A DNA stretch of 27,106 nt from a virus: the IMG/VR virus record IMGVR_UViG_3300046009_003156, positions 1 to 27,106 of that record; one strand, 5' to 3'. Under the pieces are notes generated by a model. It saw only the letters and a program-made list of their open reading frames with translations, ran no database searches and was not told the DNA's origin. Position 1 is the stretch's first letter; every line of letters starts with the position of its first letter. The translations under genes were made by a program, and so were the position numbers. Positions 1 to 23,774 of the stretch are shown in pieces.

Positions 1-1085
1 GCGGCGGCTCGATCACGGGCCGCGGCGCCGACATCCTCATCATCGATGACCCCATCAAGGACAGCGAAGAGGCGATGTCTCCGACGCTGCGCCAAAAGCT
101 GTGGGACTGGTTCACGCAAGTGGCCATGACCCGCCTGATGACCAAGTTTGCCTGCGTGGTGGTGGTGCACACCCGCTGGCACGAAGACGACCTGATTGGC
201 CGCATCACGGACCCGAGCAACCCTTGCTACTCCGAAGAGGAAGCGGCCAAGTGGAAGATCATCAACCTGCCTGCCATTGCTGGCGACGCCGACCCGTTGG
301 GCCGCCAGGCTGGCGAAGCCTTGTGGCCCGAGCGGTTTGACCTCGATTTCCTGAATGCTGCCAAGCGCCTGGACGCCAAAGGCTTCAGCGCGCTGTACCA
401 GCAGCGGCCAACGCCCGAAGACGGTGACCTGTTCCGGTCGGACTGGATCGTGCACTACGAGCGCTCACAGCTGCCCAGCGACCTGCGCATCTACGCTGCC
501 AGCGACCACGCCATTGGCGAGGACAAGACCCGCAACGACGCCACCGTGATGATCGTGGGCGGCGTCGACCAGTACGGCGACATCTACCTGCTGGACGTGT
601 GGTGGGAAAAAGCCGGGGCCGACAAGCAAGTCGACGCCATGCTGCGCTTGGCCAAACAGTGGAAGCCCACGCTGTGGTTTGCCGAGAAGGGCCACATCAG
701 CAAGGCCATTGGCCCGTTCTTGCGCAAGCGCATGCAGGAAGAGCGCACCTACTTCACCGTGGAAGAGGTCACGCCCATCGGAAACAAAGTGCAGAGGGCT
801 CAATCGATCATGGGCCGCATGAGCATGAAGAAGGTCCGATTCCCCAAGCACGCCACTTGGACGATGGCAGCCCGCGACGAGCTGCTGAAGTTTCCCAACG
901 CACGCCACGACGACTTTGTGGACGCGCTGGCCTGGCTGGGTCGGGCGGTGGATCGCATGTCCACACCCACGCGCACGCGCCCCGTCGATGGTGGCCCCAA
1001 ATACGGCACGCTGGGTTGGCTTAAAGCCGACGCGGCGCACAGAGACAAACAACAACGGCTGGAGTCGGCCATGAAAGGTTGGTAA
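1..1085 (+). CDS. terL: Terminase large subunit, C-terminal part (5' truncated by window edge)
   Basis: Packaging motor ATPase and nuclease that cuts concatemeric DNA and pumps it through the portal. The reading frame is open to the window edge (first full codon at base 3), so about 360 residues are visible and the Walker A region is missing. Near the start, ILIIDDPI is a Walker B-type strand with the acidic pair. The C-terminal half has RNase H-fold nuclease signatures: YAASDHA with a catalytic-type Asp, then FAEKGHI, and near the end RHDDFVDALAWLGRA. The ATG at 75 is internal to the fold because conserved terminase sequence continues upstream of it, so it is not the true start. The stop overlaps the portal ATG (TAATG). 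A phage of this type should have a small terminase subunit upstream, outside the window. Family assignment rests on motif recognition. Confidence 0.93.
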   Translation, partial: GGSITGRGADILIIDDPIKDSEEAMSPTLRQKLWDWFTQVAMTRLMTKFACVVVVHTRWHEDDLIGRITDPSNPCYSEEEAAKWKIINLPAIAGDADPLGRQAGEALWPERFDLDFLNAAKRLDAKGFSALYQQRPTPEDGDLFRSDWIVHYERSQLPSDLRIYAASDHAIGEDKTRNDATVMIVGGVDQYGDIYLLDVWWEKAGADKQVDAMLRLAKQWKPTLWFAEKGHISKAIGPFLRKRMQEERTYFTVEEVTPIGNKVQRAQSIMGRMSMKKVRFPKHATWTMAARDELLKFPNARHDDFVDALAWLGRAVDRMSTPTRTRPVDGGPKYGTLGWLKADAAHRDKQQRLESAMKGW

Positions 1086-3157
1086 TGGAAGAGCAAATGA
1101 AAATCATCGTGGCCACGGCTGGCGAGGAAGAAACAGACAGCGAGGCGTCAGTCGCCCGCAAGAATCTGGTGTCTGAGCTGCTGCGCCGGGTCAGCACCGC
1201 CAAGGGCGAGCACAAGAAAGCCTTTGACCGGATGAAGAGCGACATGGACATGGTGTTCCATGGCTTTGACCCGAAGCTGTGGGATGACGAGAAGTATTCC
1301 GTCAACCTGTCCCAGCGCCACGTGCAGCAACGCACGGCGGCCCTGTACGCCAAGAACCCGCGCTGCGTGGCCAAGCGCCGCCAGCGGATGATGTACCAAC
1401 TGTGGGACGGCTCGCCCGAGATGCTGGGCGATGCGAAGGCGGCCAGCCAGTTTGCCGAGCAGGCCATGCAGCCAGTGCCCCAGGCGGTGGCCATGGTCCT
1501 GCAGGAATACGACGAGGTGCAGGCCGAGAACATCCGCCTGGACAAGATCGGCAAGACGCTGGAAATCCTGTTCAGCTACTTCATGTCCGAGTCGCAGCCG
1601 ACGTTCAAGAGCCAGATGAAAGCGCTGGTGCGCCGCATGCTGACCACGGGCGTGGGCTACGTGAAGCTGGGCTTCCAGCGTGAGATGCAGCGCCGCCCGG
1701 AAATCAGCGCTCGCATGAACGACGTTCAAGTGCGCCTGGATCACCTGGACCGGCTGGCCAAAGAAGTCGGCAAGGGCGAGCTCAGCGACACAGAGGCCGA
1801 GCACGAAGAGCTGATGCTGTCCATGAAGGAGCTGACCCAGCAGCCCGACATGATCGTGCGCGAAGGCCTGATGTTCGACTTCCCAGATGCGACGGCCATC
1901 ATTGTGGATTCGCGCTGCAAGCAGCTGCGCGGCTTCATTGGCGCCCGCTGGATCGCGCACCAGATGTTCTTCACGCCCGACGAGGTGATGGAGATTTACG
2001 GCAAGGACTGCAAGGACAACTACACCGGCTACCAGGTCAAGGGCCGCTCGCACGATTCGTCGCGCCGTGGCGAGGTCGTCGGAGAAAACAGCGCATCGTC
2101 CGAAGAGGGCATGGTTTGCGTCTATGAGATTTACGACAAGCCAAGCGGCCTGGTCTACACGGTGGCCGAGGGCTTCCATGATTTCCTGAAAGAGCCCGCC
2201 GAGCCCGAGCTGCGTCTGGAGACTTTCTGGCCCGTGTTCTCTCTGGTGTGCAACGAGGTGGAGCACGACAAAGAAATCTACCCGCCGTCTGACGTGCACC
2301 TGATGCGCTCGATGGTGCATGAGTACAACCGCGCACGCGAAGGCCTGCGCGAGCACCGCAAAGCCAACCGCCCTGCTTACCTGACACCGGCCGGAGCGCT
2401 GGAGGAAGAGGACAAGGCCAAGCTGGCCACCCGCCCAGCCCACGGCGTCATCACCATCCAGGGCATGCAGCTGGGCCAGAAGTCGGAAGACCTGGTGACG
2501 CCGCTCAAGACCGTGGGCATCGACCCCAACTTGTACGAGGTGGGCACCGTGTTCGACGACGTGCAGCTGGCCGTGGGCGCGCAAGAGGCCACCTTTGGCG
2601 GCACTGGCGGGGCCACGGCCACCGAAACCAGTGTGGCCGAATCCAGCCGCATGTCGGCCCTGGGCGCCCAGGTCGACGAGCTGGACTCATTCATGTCTGA
2701 CATCGCCCGCGCATCGGGGGCCATCATGTTCCAGCAGATGAGCGCCGAGCAGGTCAAGAAGATCGCTGGCCCGGGTGCCGTGTGGCCTGAGCTGACAGCC
2801 CAAGAGATTGCCGACGAGATCCAGCTGGAGATTGAAGCAGGCTCCACCGGCAAGCCCAACCAGGCCGCCGAGCTGCAGAACATCGAGCGCGTGCTGCCTT
2901 ACATCATCCAGATTCCCGGCATCGACCCCAAGTGGCTGGCCAAGGAAGTGCTCAAGCGCATGGACGACAAGTTGGACTTGGACGCAGCGCTGGCCGAGGG
3001 CATGCAGTCGGTGGTCGCCATGAACGGCATGAACAACGCAAACGCCGCCGCTGGCATGGGTCAAGGCCCGGCTGGAGCGGCCAACGCACCCACCCCAGGA
3101 TCACCTGGCGGAGCCCTTGGCAGCGCTCCAGGCGGGCAGCCACCCATGATGATGTGA
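1085..3157 (+). CDS. Portal protein
   Basis: Dodecameric head vertex through which DNA enters and leaves. It is 690 aa, long for a portal and similar in size to those of P22-type and other podophages. The ATG at 1085 is chosen over the TTG two codons upstream because it forms a TAATG overlap with terminase and has an AAAGG ribosome site about 7 nt upstream. The N-terminal part (SQRHVQQRTAALYAKNPRC) is typical of portals from this group. Around residues 120-260 there is a charged, coiled-coil-like segment, and the C-terminus (about 650-690) is a Gly/Ala/Pro-rich tail ending in Met residues. Position directly after terL and before scaffold and coat supports the call. It is not the short HK97-type portal. 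Confidence 0.88.
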   Translation: MEEQMKIIVATAGEEETDSEASVARKNLVSELLRRVSTAKGEHKKAFDRMKSDMDMVFHGFDPKLWDDEKYSVNLSQRHVQQRTAALYAKNPRCVAKRRQRMMYQLWDGSPEMLGDAKAASQFAEQAMQPVPQAVAMVLQEYDEVQAENIRLDKIGKTLEILFSYFMSESQPTFKSQMKALVRRMLTTGVGYVKLGFQREMQRRPEISARMNDVQVRLDHLDRLAKEVGKGELSDTEAEHEELMLSMKELTQQPDMIVREGLMFDFPDATAIIVDSRCKQLRGFIGARWIAHQMFFTPDEVMEIYGKDCKDNYTGYQVKGRSHDSSRRGEVVGENSASSEEGMVCVYEIYDKPSGLVYTVAEGFHDFLKEPAEPELRLETFWPVFSLVCNEVEHDKEIYPPSDVHLMRSMVHEYNRAREGLREHRKANRPAYLTPAGALEEEDKAKLATRPAHGVITIQGMQLGQKSEDLVTPLKTVGIDPNLYEVGTVFDDVQLAVGAQEATFGGTGGATATETSVAESSRMSALGAQVDELDSFMSDIARASGAIMFQQMSAEQVKKIAGPGAVWPELTAQEIADEIQLEIEAGSTGKPNQAAELQNIERVLPYIIQIPGIDPKWLAKEVLKRMDDKLDLDAALAEGMQSVVAMNGMNNANAAAGMGQGPAGAANAPTPGSPGGALGSAPGGQPPMMM

Positions 3158-4235: not shown

Positions 4236-5303
4236 ATGGCATTTACTCAAGCCGAAATCGACAACATCGCCAACGCCGCACTCGATTACTACATCGAAAA
4301 AGGCAGCGTTTTCTCGTCCACCATTCAAGACAAGCCTTTGCTGGCCGCTCTGGATGGCAAAGCCAAGACCTTCTCAGGTGGCAAGGGCGCCGTGTCTGTT
4401 GCAGTGAAGGGTCAGTACGACTCGACACTGGGTGGTTACACCCACAACGACACTGTCAACTACGTCAACCCCGCGAAGATCAAGCGCGCCAACTTCACAT
4501 GGAAAGAGCACCACATCGGCATCGGCGTGACTCTGACCGAATTGAAGCGCGACGGCATCAGCGTGGCAGACTCCATGAACAGCGAGACTCAAAAGAGCAA
4601 TCGCGGCCGTGAAGAGACTGCGCTGGCCAACTTGCTGGAAGACAAGCTGGAAGACATGGCCGAAGGCTACGCCCGTGGCCTCAACAGCTTCTTGTGGGGT
4701 GACGGTACTGCCGACGCCAACGCATTGGCTGGCATTCGCGCCTTCATCAAGGACACTCCTGCTGCCGCTGCGCAGACCGTGGGTGGCATTGACCAGAACG
4801 CGGCGGCCAACAGCTGGTGGCGCAACCGCGTCAACTTGTCCATCACCACCACGGCGACTGGCGACGAGTTGATCGACACGTTGAACAAGGAATTCCGCCA
4901 GCTCCAGCGCTACGGCGGCAAGCCCACTGTGGCCTTGTGCGGCTCGGACTTCATGGACCGTCTGAACAAAGAGCTGCGTGCACGCGGCTACTACACCCAG
5001 CAGGGCTATGCACGAAGCCAAGACATCAAGCACGGCGACGTGACCTTTGGTGGCCTGGTCTTCAAGTACGACCCCACCATGGACGACATCGGCACCAGCT
5101 TGGGTGGCACCACCAACTACTCCAAGCGCGCTTACCTGATCGACACCTCCAAGTTGTGCCTGTACTACATGGAGAATGAGAAGATGAAGCGTCACAGCCC
5201 AGCACGTCCGCACAACCAGTACGTGATGTACCGCGCTATCACCACGACTGGCGTGTTGGCTGCCCAGCAGCTCAACTGCCACGGCGTGTACCAGTTCAGC
5301 TGA
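4236..5303 (+). CDS. Major capsid protein (HK97-fold type)
   Basis: Main coat subunit, 355 aa. The N-terminus (AEIDNIANAALDYYIEKG) is followed by a Gly-rich beta stretch (FSGGKGAVSVAVKGQYDS), suggesting N-arm and E-loop. The middle has GRGEETALANLL helices and a conserved-type SFLWGDGTADANALAGI segment, as in many HK97-fold coat proteins that carry a W-x-G...LAGI motif. The C-terminal part (PHNQYVMYRAITTTGVLAAQQLN) suits the A-domain end. The ribosome site GGAGATATCAAA precedes the ATG. There is no N-terminal protease-processed delta domain, which fits the separate scaffold gene upstream. A hairpin terminator follows at 5320-5350, which fits a strongly expressed gene. The exact coat family is not determined. 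Confidence 0.88.
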   Translation: MAFTQAEIDNIANAALDYYIEKGSVFSSTIQDKPLLAALDGKAKTFSGGKGAVSVAVKGQYDSTLGGYTHNDTVNYVNPAKIKRANFTWKEHHIGIGVTLTELKRDGISVADSMNSETQKSNRGREETALANLLEDKLEDMAEGYARGLNSFLWGDGTADANALAGIRAFIKDTPAAAAQTVGGIDQNAAANSWWRNRVNLSITTTATGDELIDTLNKEFRQLQRYGGKPTVALCGSDFMDRLNKELRARGYYTQQGYARSQDIKHGDVTFGGLVFKYDPTMDDIGTSLGGTTNYSKRAYLIDTSKLCLYYMENEKMKRHSPARPHNQYVMYRAITTTGVLAAQQLNCHGVYQFS

Positions 5304-10961: not shown

Positions 10962-12263
10962 ATGCCCACACGACAAAACCCGTTCTATCAGTACCAAAAC
11001 CGCGCCGTGGGCCAAGCCTTCAATGGACTGGCGTCGATCTTCTCTGGCACCGACCCGGTGAAGCAGTCGATGGTGACAGAGAACCAAGCGCAGGCCAGGT
11101 CTGCCGACGCCACCGCAGGCTATCGCACCGAGCAAACACGCGGCGAGCGCAACACCAACGACGCCATGATGGCCCCGCCAACAACGCTGGCCGAGCTGTT
11201 CCTGTCAGGTGGCCGCGCCACGGACGACCCTCTTCAGCGCAATCCCAATTACACCGACCCGGCGCCTACCGACTACAGCCTGTCGGCCCAGCCGATGGCT
11301 GAGCCGCAGTCGATGTTCCAGCCCAACCGCTCGGCCAACGACAAGGTGGCGGCGGCCCTGCAGGAAGCCCTGATCCGCGGCGTGAAGGTGGACGACATCG
11401 CCAAGCTGTTTGGTCAAGGTGGCTACCTCAACGCCGTCAACTCTGGCAAGCCAGAAGACGGCATGGGCTACATGCCATTGTTCGGCGCAGCGCCAAACCA
11501 GAACACGGCCCTGAGTGTCGGCCGCCAGGATGCCATGTCGGCCCGCGACGCCGCTGAAGAGCTGACCAAGCAAGGCACGATCAACGACACACGGCTGGCC
11601 GAAGAGCGCATCCAACAAGGTGGCGCCAACAGTCGCAACCAGTTCAGCGTGCTCAACGCCCCCGTCACCGCGGGCAACAATGCCGACGTGGTGCTGACGC
11701 CCGCCAGGGGTAAAGCAGCGGGCATCACGCCAGACGCCGATGGCCGCTACGTGGTGCGAGGTCGCACGACCGTGGGCACTGGCCAAGACCAGCAGCCCGG
11801 CACTCTGGGCGGCGAAGCGGTGGCTGGCCGCACAAAGCCAGTGGCGGCCGGAGCCGGTGGCAAGCCACTGCGCTTTGAGACACCCCAGATCAAGGCCGTC
11901 AACGGCATGATCGAGTCGGGTGGCACCAAGCTGGGCACCACGATCCCGCAAGCCACCCGCGACCTGATCCGGGACAACGCAGCCAAGCACTACCGCGACC
12001 CGGCCCAGCCTGAGTATGGCGACCTGGCCAACGCCACCGCTCGCTCGATGCGCGAGTTCTGGGGCGACAACCCTGCGCAAACAACTGGTGGCGTTTTTGG
12101 CCAGGGCAAATTGCTGGTCCCTCAATCTGTTGTTTCCAGCGTGCGCAAGGCGCTGGATTCTGGTGTCGATCCTGACAAAACCTACAAAACCATCGCGCAA
12201 CGCACTGGCTACACCCGCAAACAGATCGAGGACGCCCTGAATGCTCAACAACCTGCTCGATGA
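10962..12263 (+). CDS. Putative virion protein of the ejection module, unknown
   Basis: A 433-aa protein with no recognisable enzyme motif. The N-terminal ~130 residues are Asn/Gln/Pro-rich and look disordered. Helical segments lie at about 125-150 and 185-215. A Gly-rich region spans 225-300, and the C-terminal 110 residues are helical and end in a small helix pair (AQRTGYTRKQIEDALNAQ) that resembles a helix-turn-helix-like end. The GGAGG site lies 5 nt before the ATG. The 3' end overlaps the giant gene by 23 nt, indicating coupled translation, so it probably works with that protein. No function can be named. Confidence 0.65.
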   Translation: MPTRQNPFYQYQNRAVGQAFNGLASIFSGTDPVKQSMVTENQAQARSADATAGYRTEQTRGERNTNDAMMAPPTTLAELFLSGGRATDDPLQRNPNYTDPAPTDYSLSAQPMAEPQSMFQPNRSANDKVAAALQEALIRGVKVDDIAKLFGQGGYLNAVNSGKPEDGMGYMPLFGAAPNQNTALSVGRQDAMSARDAAEELTKQGTINDTRLAEERIQQGGANSRNQFSVLNAPVTAGNNADVVLTPARGKAAGITPDADGRYVVRGRTTVGTGQDQQPGTLGGEAVAGRTKPVAAGAGGKPLRFETPQIKAVNGMIESGGTKLGTTIPQATRDLIRDNAAKHYRDPAQPEYGDLANATARSMREFWGDNPAQTTGGVFGQGKLLVPQSVVSSVRKALDSGVDPDKTYKTIAQRTGYTRKQIEDALNAQQPAR

Positions 12264-15200
12264 CCTGATTCAGAAGCCGCAGCAACCCGCTGCGCGGACC
12301 AGCGTTTCTACTGCGCCCGGTGGCCTGCTGGACGACCTGATTACACAAGACACAGTGACCCCGCCCCAGAGCCAAGCGTCGGCTCCTCCTGCGGTTGCTG
12401 TCAACTCGGACCTGGGTGGTGGGGCGGCACCCAGGGCTGTCTCGGGGTTTCAGTTACCCCCGGTGGGCGATCCGTTCGGAATCAATAAGCCAGCGTCGGC
12501 TCCTGAGCAGACATTCAAAGCGGGCACGCCGGGCTTCAGCGTCATGGGTGACTTGCCCGCCGCCAAGCCACTGCCTGCGGGGGTGTCGCCTGATTTTGTG
12601 GGTAACGTGCGCAATGAAATGTTGAGGGCCACCCCCCAGCAGCGCATGCAGCTGGCCCAAGACACAGGCATGAAGGGGCGCGTCGTTCAGTCGCTGCTGG
12701 AGACTGAGCCAGCCACGTTCCGCCCGCGCCAAGACACCATCAAGAAGACACCGTTTGCCACGCAAGTGGGCATGGACCTCAGCAACAACATTCAAAACCC
12801 AGCGGCCCGCGGCGTCGTGTCTGGCCTGGCAGGTCTAGGCCAAGTGATCCCCGGCGTGATTCAAGCGGGTGCTGATTTAGTGGGCGCCGACAGTGTGGCC
12901 GACGCTGCCGCCAATACGGCGCAGATAGGCCGAGACATTTCGCAACCCCTGCGCCCAGCCGCTGGCAACGATCGCTTGGTGTTCGATGTCTTCAACAGCA
13001 TCACGCAGTCCTCGCCCACCCTGCTGGTTGGCCTGGCTGGCGGCCCGGCCATGACCACCTTGTTCGCGCAGTCCGGCGCCCAAGAGTATTCGGAGGGCCG
13101 CAGCCGCGGCCTGTCCGGTGAACAGGCCGCTGCACGCGCTGGCATCATGGCCGGTGCTGAAGTGCTGGGCGAGCGCATTGGCTTTGGCGAGCAGATGAAG
13201 CTGCTCAAGGGCATTACCGGCGGCCTGCCCATTGATGAGCTGGCCCCGACCTTTGCACGCGAAGTGGTCAAGAACGCCACTGGCGAACAGCTGACCACGC
13301 TGGTCCAGTTCCTGGGCGACAAGTACGGGCCTGGCGCCCTGAACCCACAAGGCAGCTTGCAGCAGTACCTGGAGCAAGCGGGCGACACCCTGAAGGTGGC
13401 TCTGGGCCAGTCGGCCCTGATGGGCGGCGGCCCTGCCGTGATCCAGAAAGCCCGCGACACCATGCGCAATCAGGAGGCTGGGCAGCTGGCCCGCGCCACC
13501 GACGAGTTGCCAGCCAGCGCGCTGGCCGCACGCGGGCCGGTGCCAAGCCCCGACCCGGCACCAGCCCCCGGCCCACTGCCCGTGTCCGAGCGCATCGAGC
13601 CGACGATGGACGGCCTGCTGGACGACTTGATTCCGAAAGGCGCACCCAATGCCGCTGCACCCCAAGCACCCGCAATCCCTGCCGTTGGCCAAGCGCCTGA
13701 CGCGCAAGGACCACAGGGAATTTCAGATGGCCCCGCCGTCGCAGCAGCGCAGCCTGATCCGGTTGCTGCACCTACCCAGCCCCAGCCATCGGCATCACTG
13801 ACGCCCCCTGTCGGAAATGACGGCCAACAACCGGCGGCAACACCGACGACCGATGTTCCCGAAACGGGTTTCGGGAACACCCAGCGTGTGTCCACAGTCA
13901 CCGGCCGCCAAGTGGAAACCCGCATGCGCGTGGTGGACGCCAGCGAATTGCAGGCCGCCAGTGGCGAGCTGCAGCCCCGCGACCGCAGCCGGATGTCGAG
14001 CGACGAGCAGATCAACACCATCGCCGGGCAGCTGGACCCGCAGCGCCTTGGCGAGTCGGCCGAGGCAGACCGCGGTGCGCCGATCATCGGACCCGACATG
14101 ATCGTGGAGTCGGGCAACGGCCGGGTTATGGCCATCCGTCGCGCCTTTGAGAGATTCCCAGAGCGCGCCCAGGCTTACCGCGACTACCTGGCGGCCCAAG
14201 GCTACGACACCACTGGCCTGGCCATGCCCGTGCTGGTGCGTGAGCGCGTGACGCCCATGGACCAACAAGAGCGCGTGGCCTTCGTGCAGGAGGCCAACCA
14301 GTCGGCCACCATGTCGCTGAGCCCTGTGGAGATGGCACAGATCGACGTGTCCGCCCTGCAGGACAACGTGGTGGACGTGTGGATGGGTGGCGACATCACT
14401 GACGCTGGCAACCGTGACTTCGTGCGCGCCTTCATTGGCGGGCTGCCGCAGGCCCAGCGCAACGGCATGCTGGACGAGAACGGTGGCCTGTCACCTGATG
14501 GCGCTATGCGGATCCGCCGTGCGCTGCTGGCTGCCGCCTATGGCGGCCGCGACTTGCTGGCTAAGTTGATTGAGAGCCAGGACGACAACATCAAGTCCAT
14601 CGGCAATGCGCTGTTCGACAGCTCGGGCCAGTGGCTGCAGATGCGCCGGATGGCCCGCGATGGCGTCATCAGCAAAGATTACGACGTGACGACGCAGCTG
14701 GTGCAAGCCGCCCGCATCATCGACCAGCTGCGCCAGACGCGAGGGCGCGTGCAAGATTGGCTGGCACAGACCGACCTGACCGGCGAGCGCGACCCTGTTG
14801 TGGACGCCTTCGTGACCGCCTTCTACAATGCCAACCTGACCCGTGCCGTGGGCCGCGACGCCATCAACGATGTGCTGCGCGCCTATGTCGGCATGGCCAA
14901 GAGCCAAGACACCGCTGGCTTGTTCGGTGATCCGCCTCCGCCTGTAGACATGGTGAAAGGCGCAGTGGAGCAACGCAATGAGCGAAACAAAGAAACTGTC
15001 AGTGGCAACCTCTTCGACCGAGCCGAACAAGAAAGTTCTGCTGGCGCTGGGGCGGGCCTTCAACAAGGCGGGCGACAAGCACAGCCTGCCGTCGTTCAAG
15101 GAAGCCGGGCGCGGGCTGATGGTGGCCGCACAGAAGGCCGACTTCTCGATGCCCAAGATCGGGGACCAGCGGCGCGCCAGGACCGCCAAGGGACCGGAAA

Positions 15201-18200
15201 TCAAACCCAGGCCGGTGATGTAAATGAGCGAGCCCGTCGACCTGACCGGGATGACGCCAGCGCAGGCACGCAGGGCGGTGAACGCCGCCGCGAGAACGAT
15301 GAAGCCAATCAAAACCAGCGGGTCAAGGGCTCGAGCTCCAGCTCCGTCTTCCAAAAAGTCTCTTTCACCGACCGACAAAGCATCTACCGGGACGCCTTTG
15401 TAGAGCTGGGGTTTGACCCGACCGAGGCCGAGCTGCTGCCACCGCAGCGCCAATACGAGATTCTGTCCAAGGGCTTGAAGGCCACCTACGGCCTGACCTT
15501 CGTTCAGAAGTCTGAACGCGCCAACATCCGCGATTCGATTGACCAACTGCTGGACGCCTACCGCGGCCTGCAGCTGATGACCCACGTTCTGGACCTGCCC
15601 ACGTCGGCCATTGGCCTGCGCGGCACCCTGGGCCTGGCCATGACCAGCCAGGGCAAATACTTGGGCGCCTACTACCCCGGCGGCACGGGCGATGGCAAGT
15701 CGTCTGATGGCGTGAAGTCGGACACCCCGACCATCGCCATGCCAGGCCGCTCCAACTCCTTCGCCCACGAATGGGGACACGCGCTCGATTACTTCGTGCT
15801 GACCAATTACGAGGGCGTGGTGAGCGACCTGTCCGGCTACATCCGCAAGGGTGAACGCCTGAGCGACAAGACGCCAGAGACTGTGCGCGACTCCTTCCGC
15901 CTGCTGATGAACAGCCTGTTCTTTGACCGGGCCGAGCAGTCGGCCAAGATCATGGACCTGGAGCAGCGCATCGAGGCGGCGGCGCAAAAAGGCGTAGACG
16001 CCACCAAGCTGAAGGCTGACCTGGAGCGCATCAAGTCCGGCGCATCCATGAGCCGCAACGACAAGAGTGAGTTCTACAAGTCGGCCGGGGAGTTTGGCAA
16101 GGCCACTGGCAGCGATCCAGATTACTGGCGCATGCCCACCGAGATGTTGGCCCGGTCCTTTGAGGCCTACGTGGCACACAAAGTCGAGGCCGCTGGTGGT
16201 TCTACCGAATTCATTGGCAAAAGCGATGCCGCTTATTCCAGTGAAGCCGACCTGCGCCTGGCCAAAACATTCCCTAAGAACGCAGACAGATATAACATCT
16301 TCCGCGCTTATGACTTATTGTTTGATGCAATCCGCGCTGAAGCACTGCTGAACCCCAACAACGAGGCGGTGGCCAACCTGCCCGGCAACGTGCGTCTTTC
16401 TGACCCTGCTGTCTATTTTGACGACCAACGTCAGTCGGCACAAACACCGGCCTACAAGCTGGTCTGGGATGCGGAAAAGCGTGCGTGGGCTGTGCGTGCC
16501 CGTGAGCTGGAAAAGCTCAAGGCCCGTCCCAACGACGACCGTCCGATCATCAAGCGCATGGGTGACGCCGTGCGCGCCATCCTCGAAACCAATCGTGGTG
16601 TGCTGCTGGGCATGGAGGGGCACTACCAACGCAGCGGCAATGCCTCTGCCGCCAAAGCTGTGCGCGAAGTCACCGAGCGCTTGGCCACGGACCCAGGCAG
16701 TGGTCGCAAGACAGCCGAGGGCGGCACCTACGCCGAGGCTGTGGACCGCGAGACAAAGCGCTTCCTGACGCGCCTGTCCAACATCCGGGGCAACAACAAC
16801 GCCGACCTGATGAGCGACGCCGACTTGGCGCTGCTCACGGCCGCGCTGACCGCAAGCGAAGAGCTGACGCCAATGCTGGTGCGCATGGAGAGCCCGGCCG
16901 TCACCAAGCTGGCCGCGCCACTGCGTGAGCTGCTGACGGACCTCTACTACTACAACCGCAACGCTGGCCTGGACATCGGCTTCGTCAAGGACCAGGGCTA
17001 CCTGCCGCGCCTGCTGGATGAGCCCGTCGTCACAGCCAACGCACCCGAATTCATCAAGGACGCCACCGAGGTCTACAAGATCGTCTTTGAGCGCGACACC
17101 GAGAACCCTGGTGAGGCCGACGACATCGAGGTGGCACTGGCCGCATTGGACAAGCGCATCAAGGAAGCCAACCTGTCCAAGGACGACCCCAATCTGGAGG
17201 CGTACCGCGAGGCCAAGAAAGAGCTGGCCAAGTTGCAGCGCAAGCTGGACGCGGCCAACCGTTCGGAAGACGGCGACCAGATGGACAACGCCCAAGCCGA
17301 CCTCAAGGATTTCATTGAGTCCAGCCGCAGCGTCTTTGAGGAAGCCTACGACTACGTGCGCGACGAGTGGTCGATGCAGGCCGCCGCCGAGTACCAGACC
17401 CGGATCAGCTACGGCTCGCCGGAGAGCTTCAGCTCACACTCGCCTGCAGGGTCATACCTGAAGGAGCGCACGCTGCCGCCCGAGGCCGACAAGATCCTGG
17501 CCAAGTATTACATCCAAGACCCGATTGAGCGGATCACGTCTTACGTGCAGATGTCTGTGCGCAAGGCCGAGTACAACACCCGCTTTGGACGGGATGCGCG
17601 CAACAGCCGCGAGAAGAACACCAAGCTCTTCACGATGCTGGAGTCCATGGTCAACGCTGGCGTGCGCAAGGAAGACCGCGACATGGTGGAGAAGATCGTT
17701 GGCCAGGTCACTGGCACCGACCGCTCCAGCATGCCAAGCCAAGCTCAGCGCACGCTGGGCAACCTGCACGCCTTGGGTCAAATGGCATTGCTGGGCCGCG
17801 TGGTGCTCACATCGCTGGCCGAACCCATCACCGTGGCTGCGCAAACGGGCAAGCCGCTGGACGCCCTGAAAGCCGTCGGCCTGACCATGCAGGAAATCGC
17901 CAACACCGGCAGCGTGCGCGAGCGCCGCGCCATGGCCCGCGTGCTGGGCATCGTGTCTGGCGACTATGCCGACGAGATGATTTCCAACCGCTTGGGCGGA
18001 TCGTTCGCAGAGTCGTCGGCCATGAGCCGCGTGTCGGCCAACTACTTCCGCCGCGTGGGCCTGACGGGCCTGACCAACGCGCAGCGACGGGCGGCCATGC
18101 AGCTGTCTGGCCGCTACGTGCTGGAGCTGGCACACACCATGGACGACACCGAGGCCAGCGCCAAAGAGAAGGGCTTTGCCCGCGACGAGATGGTGGACGC

Positions 18201-19086
18201 TGGCATCCAGCCCGAGCAGATCCAGGACTTCACCAATTGGGCACGCGAGTTCTCCAACCGCATGCCGCGCCACGACGAGCTGATCGACGTGGATGGCAGC
18301 CTGACTGAGATGGGCAAGATTTACGCCGTGATGGTGGGCCGCCTGGTCAACCAGTCTATTCAGAGCCCGACCGCCATCGACCGCCCATGGGCAGCCAACA
18401 CGCCAGTGGGTCGCCTGACCTACGGCCTGCTGTCGTTCTCCATGGCGTTCTTCCGCAACATCATGGTCAAGTCGGTTAAGAAAGTGGCCCGCGAGTATGA
18501 GAAACGCGGAGCTGGCCAAGCCGCCGCGGTGGCGGGCATGCAAGTGCTGGCGCCATTGGCGTCGCTGTACATGGGCCACTTGCTGGTGACGATGGCACGC
18601 GAGGCTTTGCTCAACCCTGACAAGTGGGAAGAGGAAGAAAAGAAGGAAGGCGGATTCCCGATCAAGTGGCTGGCAGCACTGGCATTCAGCCGCGTGGGAT
18701 TCACCGGCCTGGCCGACCCGCTCTACAACGCGCTGCTGGGCGTGAAGTACCAGCGCGACCTGTCCAACATCCTGGCCGGCGCCACCTTTTCGTTCTTCCT
18801 GCAAAGCCTGGAGCGCATCGCCAAATACTTTGTGGCCAACAGCGAGAACACGAACAGCGCCGAGCGTGCGGCGGCCCGCGGCCTGTATGAGCTGGCCGTG
18901 CAGCCGTCAATCGCCTATGCCACCGGCTACCTGCCAGGCGGCCCTGTGCTGGGTTACGGGCTGGGGGCCAGTTACATGTACATGAGTTCGCCCGCATTCA
19001 AGAGCCAGTGGCAAGACTGGCTGGCGGGCGAGAAAGAGGGCAAGCAAAAGAAGGCCGGAGGCGGCCAGAAAGATGGTCCGCTGTGA
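12241..19086 (+). CDS. Giant polyvalent ejection protein (ParB/DdrB-like, LPD1/HEWGH, membrane-active C-terminus)
   Basis: A 2281-aa protein, the largest gene here, in the position of the large ejected core protein of podophages. The N-terminus has two LLDDLI motifs (residues 5-10 and 29-34), with a third at 459-464. Residues about 187-380 are Ala/Gly-rich amphipathic helices. Residues about 541-900 form a ParB/DdrB-like domain with the motif SGNGRVMAIRRA (GNGR at 625-628). Residues ~913-1050 are a disordered linker overlapped by two small ORFs. Residues ~1035-1250 match the LPD1 type of large polyvalent protein-associated domain, with HEWGHALDYF (His-Glu pair at 1176-1180), a possible zinc metallopeptidase site. 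A coiled coil spans ~1619-1696. The last ~240 residues (LLSFSMAFFRNIMVKSVKK onward) resemble the LPD38-type hydrophobic C-terminus. Polyvalent proteins of this kind are thought to be injected with DNA to act early in the host. No canonical start codon lies between the linker and the LPD1 region. Domain names come from memory of the families. Confidence 0.82.
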   Translation: MLNNLLDDLIQKPQQPAARTSVSTAPGGLLDDLITQDTVTPPQSQASAPPAVAVNSDLGGGAAPRAVSGFQLPPVGDPFGINKPASAPEQTFKAGTPGFSVMGDLPAAKPLPAGVSPDFVGNVRNEMLRATPQQRMQLAQDTGMKGRVVQSLLETEPATFRPRQDTIKKTPFATQVGMDLSNNIQNPAARGVVSGLAGLGQVIPGVIQAGADLVGADSVADAAANTAQIGRDISQPLRPAAGNDRLVFDVFNSITQSSPTLLVGLAGGPAMTTLFAQSGAQEYSEGRSRGLSGEQAAARAGIMAGAEVLGERIGFGEQMKLLKGITGGLPIDELAPTFAREVVKNATGEQLTTLVQFLGDKYGPGALNPQGSLQQYLEQAGDTLKVALGQSALMGGGPAVIQKARDTMRNQEAGQLARATDELPASALAARGPVPSPDPAPAPGPLPVSERIEPTMDGLLDDLIPKGAPNAAAPQAPAIPAVGQAPDAQGPQGISDGPAVAAAQPDPVAAPTQPQPSASLTPPVGNDGQQPAATPTTDVPETGFGNTQRVSTVTGRQVETRMRVVDASELQAASGELQPRDRSRMSSDEQINTIAGQLDPQRLGESAEADRGAPIIGPDMIVESGNGRVMAIRRAFERFPERAQAYRDYLAAQGYDTTGLAMPVLVRERVTPMDQQERVAFVQEANQSATMSLSPVEMAQIDVSALQDNVVDVWMGGDITDAGNRDFVRAFIGGLPQAQRNGMLDENGGLSPDGAMRIRRALLAAAYGGRDLLAKLIESQDDNIKSIGNALFDSSGQWLQMRRMARDGVISKDYDVTTQLVQAARIIDQLRQTRGRVQDWLAQTDLTGERDPVVDAFVTAFYNANLTRAVGRDAINDVLRAYVGMAKSQDTAGLFGDPPPPVDMVKGAVEQRNERNKETVSGNLFDRAEQESSAGAGAGLQQGGRQAQPAVVQGSRARADGGRTEGRLLDAQDRGPAARQDRQGTGNQTQAGDVNERARRPDRDDASAGTQGGERRRENDEANQNQRVKGSSSSSVFQKVSFTDRQSIYRDAFVELGFDPTEAELLPPQRQYEILSKGLKATYGLTFVQKSERANIRDSIDQLLDAYRGLQLMTHVLDLPTSAIGLRGTLGLAMTSQGKYLGAYYPGGTGDGKSSDGVKSDTPTIAMPGRSNSFAHEWGHALDYFVLTNYEGVVSDLSGYIRKGERLSDKTPETVRDSFRLLMNSLFFDRAEQSAKIMDLEQRIEAAAQKGVDATKLKADLERIKSGASMSRNDKSEFYKSAGEFGKATGSDPDYWRMPTEMLARSFEAYVAHKVEAAGGSTEFIGKSDAAYSSEADLRLAKTFPKNADRYNIFRAYDLLFDAIRAEALLNPNNEAVANLPGNVRLSDPAVYFDDQRQSAQTPAYKLVWDAEKRAWAVRARELEKLKARPNDDRPIIKRMGDAVRAILETNRGVLLGMEGHYQRSGNASAAKAVREVTERLATDPGSGRKTAEGGTYAEAVDRETKRFLTRLSNIRGNNNADLMSDADLALLTAALTASEELTPMLVRMESPAVTKLAAPLRELLTDLYYYNRNAGLDIGFVKDQGYLPRLLDEPVVTANAPEFIKDATEVYKIVFERDTENPGEADDIEVALAALDKRIKEANLSKDDPNLEAYREAKKELAKLQRKLDAANRSEDGDQMDNAQADLKDFIESSRSVFEEAYDYVRDEWSMQAAAEYQTRISYGSPESFSSHSPAGSYLKERTLPPEADKILAKYYIQDPIERITSYVQMSVRKAEYNTRFGRDARNSREKNTKLFTMLESMVNAGVRKEDRDMVEKIVGQVTGTDRSSMPSQAQRTLGNLHALGQMALLGRVVLTSLAEPITVAAQTGKPLDALKAVGLTMQEIANTGSVRERRAMARVLGIVSGDYADEMISNRLGGSFAESSAMSRVSANYFRRVGLTGLTNAQRRAAMQLSGRYVLELAHTMDDTEASAKEKGFARDEMVDAGIQPEQIQDFTNWAREFSNRMPRHDELIDVDGSLTEMGKIYAVMVGRLVNQSIQSPTAIDRPWAANTPVGRLTYGLLSFSMAFFRNIMVKSVKKVAREYEKRGAGQAAAVAGMQVLAPLASLYMGHLLVTMAREALLNPDKWEEEEKKEGGFPIKWLAALAFSRVGFTGLADPLYNALLGVKYQRDLSNILAGATFSFFLQSLERIAKYFVANSENTNSAERAAARGLYELAVQPSIAYATGYLPGGPVLGYGLGASYMYMSSPAFKSQWQDWLAGEKEGKQKKAGGGQKDGPL
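14978..15223 (+). CDS. Nested small basic protein in +1 frame of the giant gene
   Basis: An 81-aa ORF lying wholly inside the giant gene in the +1 frame. The ATG has a GGAG site with an ideal 7-nt spacer (14967-14970). By hand count, 68 of its 81 codons end in G or C (84%; 56 of the last 61), whereas the giant frame over the same bases gives 39 of 82 (48%). The protein looks like real folded sequence (NKKVLLALGRAFNKAG, then FKEAGRGLMVAAQKADFS) with a basic tail. The giant frame here is Arg/Gln/Gly/Ala low complexity, as expected from a shifted reading of GC-rich coding DNA. No family is recognised. The stop TAA is followed at once by the ATG of a second nested ORF. Confidence 0.68.
   Translation: MSETKKLSVATSSTEPNKKVLLALGRAFNKAGDKHSLPSFKEAGRGLMVAAQKADFSMPKIGDQRRARTAKGPEIKPRPVM
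15224..15403 (+). CDS. Second nested small protein in +1 frame of the giant gene
   Basis: A 59-aa ORF starting directly after the previous stop (TAAATG), which suggests translational coupling; only a weak AGG lies upstream. Its first 23 codons keep strong G/C third positions (21 of 23). From about codon 33 the bias returns to the giant frame, where the LPD1 region begins. The sequence starts MSEPVDLTGMTPAQARRAVN, a plausible small helix, and ends in a Ser/Pro/Ala/Lys-rich tail that may be a by-product of the overlap. No family is recognised. It is below common ORF length cut-offs and easily missed. Confidence 0.5.
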   Translation: MSEPVDLTGMTPAQARRAVNAAARTMKPIKTSGSRARAPAPSSKKSLSPTDKASTGTPL

Positions 19087-19595: not shown

Positions 19596-20093
19596 ATGAA
19601 TGAAGTGCTTGCAGGACTGCTGAAAAACTTAGCCCCAGGCTTGGCCACCGTGGTGGCTGGCCCGCTCGGTGGTATGGCCGTCAAGGCCATCGCTGAGAAG
19701 CTGGGTGTGGAGGATACGGTCGAGGCCGTGACCAACGCCATCCAGGCCGACCCAGAGGCAGCCCTGAAGCTGGCCGAGATTGACCTCAAACAGTTTGAGG
19801 CCGAGGTCAAAGACCGCGACGGCGCACGCGCCATGCAGGTCGCAGCCCTGCAGCAGAACGACTGGTTTGCAAAGCACTTCATCTATCTGTTCACAAGCGT
19901 CTGGTCCATCTTTGCGATGGCCTACTTCGCCTTTGTGACCTTCGGCACCGTGCCCACCAGTGGCGTGCGTATGGCCGACACGATCCTGGGCGTGCTCATT
20001 GGCACCGTGCTCACGGGCTTCTTCAACTTTTTCTTCGGCTCATCCAAGGGGTCACAAGACAAGACGAACGCGATCATGAAAGGCATCAAATGA
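19596..20093 (+). CDS. Holin, three-TM family
   Basis: A 165-aa protein matching the phage 'holin of 3TMs' layout. A weak hydrophobic Gly-rich segment (about 16-32, LATVVAGPLGGMAVKAI) is followed by a charged region with ADPEAALKLAEIDLKQFEAEV and DRDGARAMQ. Two strong TM segments follow at about 94-116 and 128-148, and a basic C-terminus. Holins form the inner-membrane lesion that lets endolysin reach the cell wall. The ribosome site AAAGGA precedes the ATG. The stop overlaps the endolysin start (ATGA), the normal coupling in lysis cassettes. Confidence 0.87.
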   Translation: MNEVLAGLLKNLAPGLATVVAGPLGGMAVKAIAEKLGVEDTVEAVTNAIQADPEAALKLAEIDLKQFEAEVKDRDGARAMQVAALQQNDWFAKHFIYLFTSVWSIFAMAYFAFVTFGTVPTSGVRMADTILGVLIGTVLTGFFNFFFGSSKGSQDKTNAIMKGIK

Positions 20094-20602
20094 AATCGAA
20101 CTTTGAATCAGCACTGAAGACCGTGCTCCACCATGAGGGCGGGTACGTCAACCATCCAGCAGACCCCGGTGGCATGACCAACCTGGGCGTGACAAAGCGC
20201 GTCTGGGAAGAATGGGTCGGCCATGAGGTGGACGAAAAGACGATGCGAGGCCTGACACCCGCCGTCGTTGGCCCGATGTACAAGGCCAAGTATTGGGACA
20301 AGATTCGGGGCGACGACCTGCCTGCCGGTGTTGACTATGCGGTGTTTGACGCTGCCGTGAACAGTGGCCCAGGTCGCGCTGCCAAGTGGTTGCAGGGCTG
20401 CGTTGGTGTTGAGCAAGACGGTGGCATCGGCCCCAAGACTCTGGCCGCCGTGGCTGCCATGGACCCGGCCGACTTGGTTGAGGATTACGCCAAGCGCCGG
20501 TTGTCGTTTCTGATGGACCTGAAGACCTGGGACACCTTCGGCCGGGGGTGGGGCCGCCGGGTGGCTGAGGTGCAAACCAGCGCGACGAACATGCTGGCTT
20601 GA
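20090..20602 (+). CDS. Endolysin, GH108-type N-acetylmuramidase
   Basis: A 170-aa peptidoglycan hydrolase. The N-terminus carries the HHEGGYVNHPADPGGMTNLGVT signature of glycoside hydrolase family 108, with Glu16 as the expected catalytic acid. The second half (VGVEQDGGIGPKTLAAVAA) is the matching peptidoglycan-binding type 3 domain. There is no signal peptide, so export depends on the upstream holin. The ATGA overlap with the holin fixes the start. The stop codon lies only one base from the CCA end of a tRNA gene on the opposite strand. No Rz/Rz1 spanin pair follows. Confidence 0.93.
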   Translation: MKSNFESALKTVLHHEGGYVNHPADPGGMTNLGVTKRVWEEWVGHEVDEKTMRGLTPAVVGPMYKAKYWDKIRGDDLPAGVDYAVFDAAVNSGPGRAAKWLQGCVGVEQDGGIGPKTLAAVAAMDPADLVEDYAKRRLSFLMDLKTWDTFGRGWGRRVAEVQTSATNMLA

Positions 20603-23107: not shown

Positions 23108-23298
23108 CTGACTTAGAAACAGAACAGTGGAGCGACCTTCAGTGGGCTCACGACGTGTTGGCTGGGCGCGGTGATGTTCACGACAATATGTCGTCAGCTC
23201 ACAACATGCTTCACTTAATCAGTGTCAACGGCGTGACTCAAAAGATCAAACATGCAGCCAGCGTCACCTTGATGCAGGGTGTCGCGGTGGCTGCATGA
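23104..23298 (+). CDS. Small early protein, unknown
   Basis: A 64-aa acidic-to-neutral protein (starting MTDLETEQWSDLQWAHDVLAG) with a GGAG site upstream and ATGA overlaps at both ends, so it is firmly embedded in the early operon. Sequence is His/Met-rich in the middle (HDNMSSAHNMLHLI). No family is recognised and no membrane segment is present. Confidence 0.7.
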   Translation: MTDLETEQWSDLQWAHDVLAGRGDVHDNMSSAHNMLHLISVNGVTQKIKHAASVTLMQGVAVAA

Positions 23299-23774
23299 AG
23301 ATTGCTGGAATTGACCCAGGTTTGTCGGGTGCCATCTGTGTGTTTGATGTCGACAAAGGGATGCTCACCATACTCGACATGCCGACAGTCGAGGTCAAGT
23401 CTGGCAAGACCATGAAGCGCAAGCTCAGCGAGCCCATGCTGGCCGAGCTGCTTCGCCCTCACAACATCGAGCACTGCGCTTTGGAGCAAGTCGGGGCCAT
23501 GCCTGGCCAAGGCGTCAGCTCGATGTTCAGCTTCGGCCAGAGCTACGGCGCGATCCGTGGCGTCTTGGCTGGACTGCAAGTGCCCATCACCCTGGTCACA
23601 CCGGCCAAGTGGTGCCGCGACCTCAAGCTGGCAGCTGGCAAGGATGCAAACCGCCAGCGCGCCGCCCAACTCTTTCCGGCCTATGCCGCGTCGTTCGTCC
23701 GTGTCAAAGACGATGGCCGCGCAGACGCTGCTTTGCTGGCCTATTGGCTGCTTCAATTTGGAGAAATTGTCTGA
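23295..23774 (+). CDS. RuvC-like Holliday junction resolvase
   Basis: A 159-aa protein with an RNase H-fold nuclease pattern like RuvC. Asp7 sits in IAGIDPGLSGA, Glu64 in CALEQVGAMPGQG, and a C-terminal acidic site in KDDGRADAALLAYW (Asp144 likely). FSFGQSYGAIRGVL is a typical core helix. It would resolve branched DNA before packaging or in phage recombination. The next gene is a recombination exonuclease, so they likely act in one pathway. The ATGA overlap fixes the start. Confidence 0.9.
   Translation: MKIAGIDPGLSGAICVFDVDKGMLTILDMPTVEVKSGKTMKRKLSEPMLAELLRPHNIEHCALEQVGAMPGQGVSSMFSFGQSYGAIRGVLAGLQVPITLVTPAKWCRDLKLAAGKDANRQRAAQLFPAYAASFVRVKDDGRADAALLAYWLLQFGEIV

Follow-up and report, generated by a model that had tools for sequence, protein, structure and literature searches.

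Can the linker between two domains of a giant phage protein encode, in a second reading frame, further proteins of its own? The question is raised by a 27,106-base virus record (IMG/VR record IMGVR_UViG_3300046009_003156, positions 1 to 27,106; here called the window), in which a giant gene for a polyvalent protein carries two small open reading frames, ORF1 and ORF2, in tandem in its +1 frame. Polyvalent proteins that combine DdrB-ParB, zincin-like peptidase, and LPD domains have been described (Iyer et al., 2017; PMC5512222), and the word "overlap" is absent from the main text of that paper.

The Giant Gene

Gene order in the window begins with terminase (3–1085) and portal (1079–3157) genes, followed by the gene for the major head protein (4236–5303) and then tail genes. 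The giant gene lies downstream of these on the plus strand (12241–19086) and encodes 2,281 amino acids; genes for an endolysin (20090–20602) and a Holliday junction resolvase (23295–23774) follow on its 3' side. Pfam identifies a DdrB-like ParB domain (ddrB-ParB, E = 6e-33) at residues 555–669 (13903–14247, plus strand), upstream of the nested ORFs, and an LPD1 domain (E = 2.5e-12) at residues 1291–1366 (16111–16338, plus strand), both in one polypeptide. Downstream of the nested ORFs, the protein also has a zincin-like metallopeptidase motif, FAHEWGHALDYF (HEWGH; 15760–15795, plus strand), of a peptidase class described previously (PMC5512222). Its FAHEWGHA core is invariant in an 18-sequence alignment of giant-protein relatives, and no Pfam peptidase family matches the giant protein above the curated cut-off. 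The giant protein resembles the published polyvalent proteins in its DdrB-ParB and LPD1 domains (by Pfam) and its invariant HEWGH motif. Its gene context, downstream of terminase, portal, and capsid genes, and weak PHROG matches to a virion structural protein and an internal head protein suggest that it is probably packaged in the virion and ejected.

Nested Reading Frames in the Window

ORF1 (14978–15223, plus strand, 81 aa) is located in the linker that joins the DdrB-ParB domain to the zincin motif, and ORF2 (15224–15403, plus strand, 59 aa) follows directly in the same linker. A Shine-Dalgarno-like GGAG (14967–14970, plus strand; GTGGAGCAACGCAATG) stands 7 nt ahead of the ORF1 ATG, and the two ORFs meet in a TAAATG stop-start junction (15221–15226, plus strand), which reads GTAAATG in the sequence. 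The coordinates, starts, and stops given in a first-pass annotation of the window agree with the sequence, as do the GGAG and the junction that it reported. Its hand count of G/C third positions was also reproduced: over 14978–15223 they occur in 68/82 codons of the +1 frame (stop counted) and in 39/81 of the giant frame. The annotation had extended this coding shift over about 426 nt; it holds for the ORF1 span but is absent in ORF2 (41/61 vs. 41/60). Because of that absence, and because a Pro/Ala-rich stretch of the giant gene (13591–13860) has a G/C third-position shift resembling that of ORF1, the shift is weak evidence by itself. When the giant protein was kept and its synonymous codons were reshuffled, the +1 frame stayed open across the ORF1 span with P ~0.68. 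From one sequence alone, the claim of nested ORFs is weak; it is the comparative data from relatives that carry the signal beyond chance, and with them the original observation was upheld and made much stronger.

Distribution Among Relatives

Relatives were sought with the zincin region in 2.9 million viral contigs and 84,980 prokaryote genomes, which yielded about 100 giant-gene loci. Dozens of uncultured phages carry ORF1 at this position even though much else in them differs. The nearest relatives (zincin region 70–92% identical) keep its start, stop, and protein, and across relatives generally the protein sequence, start position, and ribosome-binding site are kept, usually together with the stop-start junction. 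The TAAATG junction is identical in loci L006, L008, L011, and L013; in L015 the ATG after the ORF1 stop is displaced by one codon and the junction is not kept. Stop and start codons are also adjacent in L024, L031, L033, L034, L035, L027, and L111. In alignments of homologues, the +1 ORFs and their starts are conserved alongside the linker, and within the window's clade no relative combined a conserved linker with unconserved ORFs or an intact linker with loss of both.

An iterative profile built from six ORF1 proteins was searched in six frames against the approximately 100 giant-gene loci. It gave 46 matches, 45 of them nested in the +1 frame of the giant gene; neither the giant frame nor the antisense strand yielded any. 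The remaining match, in L148 (Vibrio hannami), lies in the +1 of the local frame, where the giant gene is broken by frameshifts. ORF2 profiles likewise matched the +1 frame only. Outlying members of the ORF1 family were found by iterative profiles of short sequences. Broken giant genes, with a frameshift or early stop, were seen in L148 (6000–9100, V. hannami genome) and in the viral contig L055 (5052–8294), and these may reflect decay or assembly error.

Several further small ORFs were noted in giant genes. Those at L042:7744, L043:2032, L048:7006, L050:7387, L051:6625, and L054:5056 are +1 ORFs of 45–81 aa, each preceded by a strong Shine-Dalgarno site. Their giant genes give no match to the ORF1 profile, and pairwise conservation scans in L042/L043, L048, L050, and L051 gave no significant signal; they may be diverged ORF1 genes, separate births, or chance. 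In another giant clade, comparison of L126 with L131 revealed a second +1 conservation peak (L126:4796–4975; +2 weaker) well upstream of the zincin region, which may mark another nested ORF or simply a stretch of low synonymous divergence. Two isolated phages, Aeromonas phage phiARM81mr (L177:5112) and Pseudoalteromonas phage vB_Pun_Y3 (L064:9151), each have, beyond the DdrB-ParB region, a small +1 ORF preceded by a ribosome-binding site. These were not accepted as nested ORFs, since their relatives are too similar or too different and no conservation signal supports them.

Selection on Both Frames

Substitution rates by giant codon position are dominated by position 3 in nearly all segments outside the overlap. 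Within it the order flips (0.45/0.19/0.15 at 15121–15300), as expected of a protein encoded in the +1 frame. Conservation was assessed under a minimum-change null; an earlier null, with random codons at changed residues, was too lenient and overstated z-scores. Under the minimum-change null, ORF1 identity in the +1 frame exceeded expectation in 8/8 pairs of the window's clade (P ≤ 0.014); the same held for 11/11 pairs of other lineages (P ≤ 0.004). In every one of the 19 ORF1 pairs the giant frame showed reduced synonymous change, and the reduction was significant for most; examples are L021–L032 (3/33 vs. 0.51) and L022–L023 (3/27 vs. 0.57). The upstream flank, downstream flank, and N-terminal segment, used as controls, were flat. 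Of the three closest pairs, two gave a mild positive signal in the Pro/Ala linker control (13591–13860; P 0.02–0.04), which was negative in divergent pairs; ORF1 values from any single close pair therefore deserve little weight.

For ORF2 the picture is divided. Its N-terminal half has +1 identity above expectation in 6/6 close pairs (P ≤ 0.013, minimum-change null) and no conservation with L015, while its C-terminal half is mostly dictated by the giant protein. ORF2 also varies between lineages and is absent from several. The first-pass reading of two nested small genes therefore has to be qualified for ORF2, whose clear +1-frame signal is confined to the N-terminal half and which is replaced or missing in some lineages.

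The giant frame is constrained as well. When ORF1 and ORF2 were kept and their codons reshuffled, a mean of 3.6–6.2 stops arose in the giant frame, and only 0.04–2% of trials in each of six lineages were stop-free. The giant frame is nevertheless open in the relatives examined, broken loci apart. This openness, together with the constraint on ORF1 and ORF2, indicates that both frames are under selection. The linker DNA is very probably dual-coding and conserved, with independent initiation of ORF1, as judged by sequence comparison. The proposal that the same bases encode the linker and the small proteins is supported, in that conservation of the nested ORFs goes with an intact, conserved giant-frame linker.

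Origin of the Nested Frame

As one origin, the first-pass annotation had suggested a gene fusion in which a stop was lost and two small genes were read through. On that account, the two small genes once stood between separate ddrB and zincin genes, which became joined through them as stops disappeared. ORF1 and ORF2 do resemble an ordinary pair of small genes in tandem, the stop of one abutting the start of the next, but a stand-alone ORF1 was not found in the collections scanned. Pattern scans of the 2.9 million viral contigs were run with two ORF1 sub-alignments as queries, the full 28-row alignment having no conserved stretch; they returned nested copies only, including two on contigs outside the first set, and no stand-alone copy, at a sensitivity that diverged copies could escape. 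A tblastn search with three ORF1 members against 50,697 phage records gave no match. Where relatives lack the small ORFs (several such loci are in bacterial genomes), ddrB, linker, and zincin region already form one continuous gene. Epsilon15-like phages were considered as the ancestral split state and rejected: they have a stand-alone ddrB with no related small gene after it, and the small gene that follows ddrB in some has no ORF1 match. Fusion is therefore unlikely.

Because only nested copies of ORF1 were found and continuous giant genes without the ORFs exist, the evidence favours birth of ORF1 inside the linker (overprinting), which fits better than fusion; insertion of a coding segment is also possible. 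The linker is shorter in most of the inspected relatives that lack the small ORFs. Presence of ORF1 is clustered on the zincin tree, requiring 6 changes against 27 with shuffled labels (on a quick, unrooted tree).

Predicted Translation of the Giant and Nested Frames

If the giant ORF were in fact two proteins, the N-terminal part would end in the linker, the C-terminal part would start independently, and only ORF1 and ORF2 would be translated between them. The low complexity of the giant-frame linker would suit such an arrangement, and phage P1 DdrB is reportedly processed before packaging (PMC5512222). An open giant frame is improbable if untranslated, however (P 0.0004–0.02 in each of the six lineages), and there is no canonical start between 14965 and 15475, which makes two separately translated proteins very unlikely. 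Downstream of a GTG at 14965, the giant frame next offers a TTG at 15475 and then an ATG at 15577 as canonical starts. The claim that none occurs from about 14965 up to LPD1 is correct for a gap of about 510 nt but does not extend to LPD1, since the TTG and ATG precede the zincin motif and are well ahead of that domain. Later proteolysis of the full-length giant product is possible.

Shine-Dalgarno matches of at least 4 nt, located 4–11 nt from the ATG or GTG, precede 25 of 29 non-redundant ORF1 copies and are found in 11.7% of control windows. Programmed frameshifting out of the giant frame, giving a truncated DdrB with an ORF1 tail, would account for the nested frame being +1 to the giant in every case. 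Two observations speak against it: the ORF1 start codon and ribosome-binding site are conserved, and a stop in the +1 frame often lies close ahead of the start. The open stretch there is 0 codons in L038, 2 in L031 and L034, 4 in L007, and 7 in the window, which leaves hardly any space, or none, for a shift site. Frameshifting is thus highly improbable. That the +1 ORFs are a compositional artefact of a GC-rich, low-complexity linker, with no product, is scarcely credible: openness by chance and the G/C shift at 13591–13860 would agree with it, but the +1 protein is conserved and giant-frame synonymous change suppressed in every pair tested, flanking controls are flat, ribosome-binding sites are enriched, and every profile match over many lineages falls in a single frame.

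For ORF2, the recurrence of stop-start adjacency in distant lineages suggests reinitiation, and the TAAATG junction probably mediates termination-reinitiation (translational coupling). In L022 and L023, ORF1 follows the DdrB-ParB region and ORF2 precedes the zincin region, even though they are about 400 nt apart, so that each ORF tracks its neighbouring module. We infer that the ORF1 and ORF2 proteins are actually made.

The Predicted ORF1 and ORF2 Proteins

ORF1 proteins are small and basic. Family length is about 47–87 aa, and all 26 members checked are basic (mean net charge +8.3). The 81-aa protein of the window has a net charge of +10 and predicted helices at residues 18–35 and 38–53. The two-helix hairpin is modelled with pLDDT ~90 within an otherwise low-confidence model. 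Searches of 28 members against Pfam and PHROGs matched no family. No significant structural match was obtained in the PDB, a two-helix hairpin being too generic; the best profile matches there were designed helical proteins, over about one helix, and were rejected as homologues. ORF2 is predicted to form one helix plus disorder. Tentatively, ORF1 might assist the giant protein as a small partner when that protein is packaged or processed, or it might be a basic protein that is packaged along with the DNA.

Discussion

Nested or overlapping phage genes are known from lambda (Rz/Rz1) and phiX174, where a small protein is encoded in another frame and has its own translation start. The present case is similar in that a small phage protein lies in another frame inside a larger gene. 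It differs in that the host gene is that of a giant polyvalent protein, the site is an inter-domain linker, two ORFs are in tandem, and no known family is involved; nothing here points to lysis. Phage P1 also has a small ORF, iddB, annotated inside its ddrB gene, but iddB runs on the other strand and falls inside the DdrB-ParB region, whereas ORF1 is in the +1 frame and in the linker that follows. As an antisense and unrelated gene, iddB was rejected as an ORF1 homologue, and the ORF1 profile has no match in P1. Nested phage genes are thus a known kind. We found no report in the open-access literature of the ORF1 family, its location in polyvalent protein genes, or its breadth, and as far as we have found, nested genes are new to the polyvalent-protein class.

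In the arrangement that we propose, the giant-frame linker would serve as a low-complexity, probably disordered spacer between the DdrB-ParB and zincin-like regions. An internal ribosome-binding site with an ATG or GTG in the +1 frame would give ORF1, a basic helical hairpin, and in many lineages an adjacent stop-start junction would lead to ORF2, probably through reinitiation. The +1 frame would have been born inside a permissive linker by overprinting, and its products would be synthesised alongside the giant protein in the late phase of infection. A broader reading, which we put forward with some reserve, is that nested +1 genes in the linker behind the DdrB-ParB domain are general in one large group of DdrB-zincin giants, with ORF1 a required small subunit or chaperone whose overlap with its partner's gene fixes co-inheritance and co-expression; the +1 ORFs of L042/L043, L048, L050, L051, and L054, which occupy a corresponding part of the giant gene, would then be either copies of ORF1 too diverged to be recognised or genes born independently at a permissive site.

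These genes represent strongly supported, long-lived dual coding in tailed DNA phages, in a family missed by annotation because it is always inside a larger gene. They suggest that disordered linkers of giant modular proteins are sites of gene birth and retention, and they make ORF1 a concrete small-partner candidate for phage proteins that are thought to be injected with DNA.
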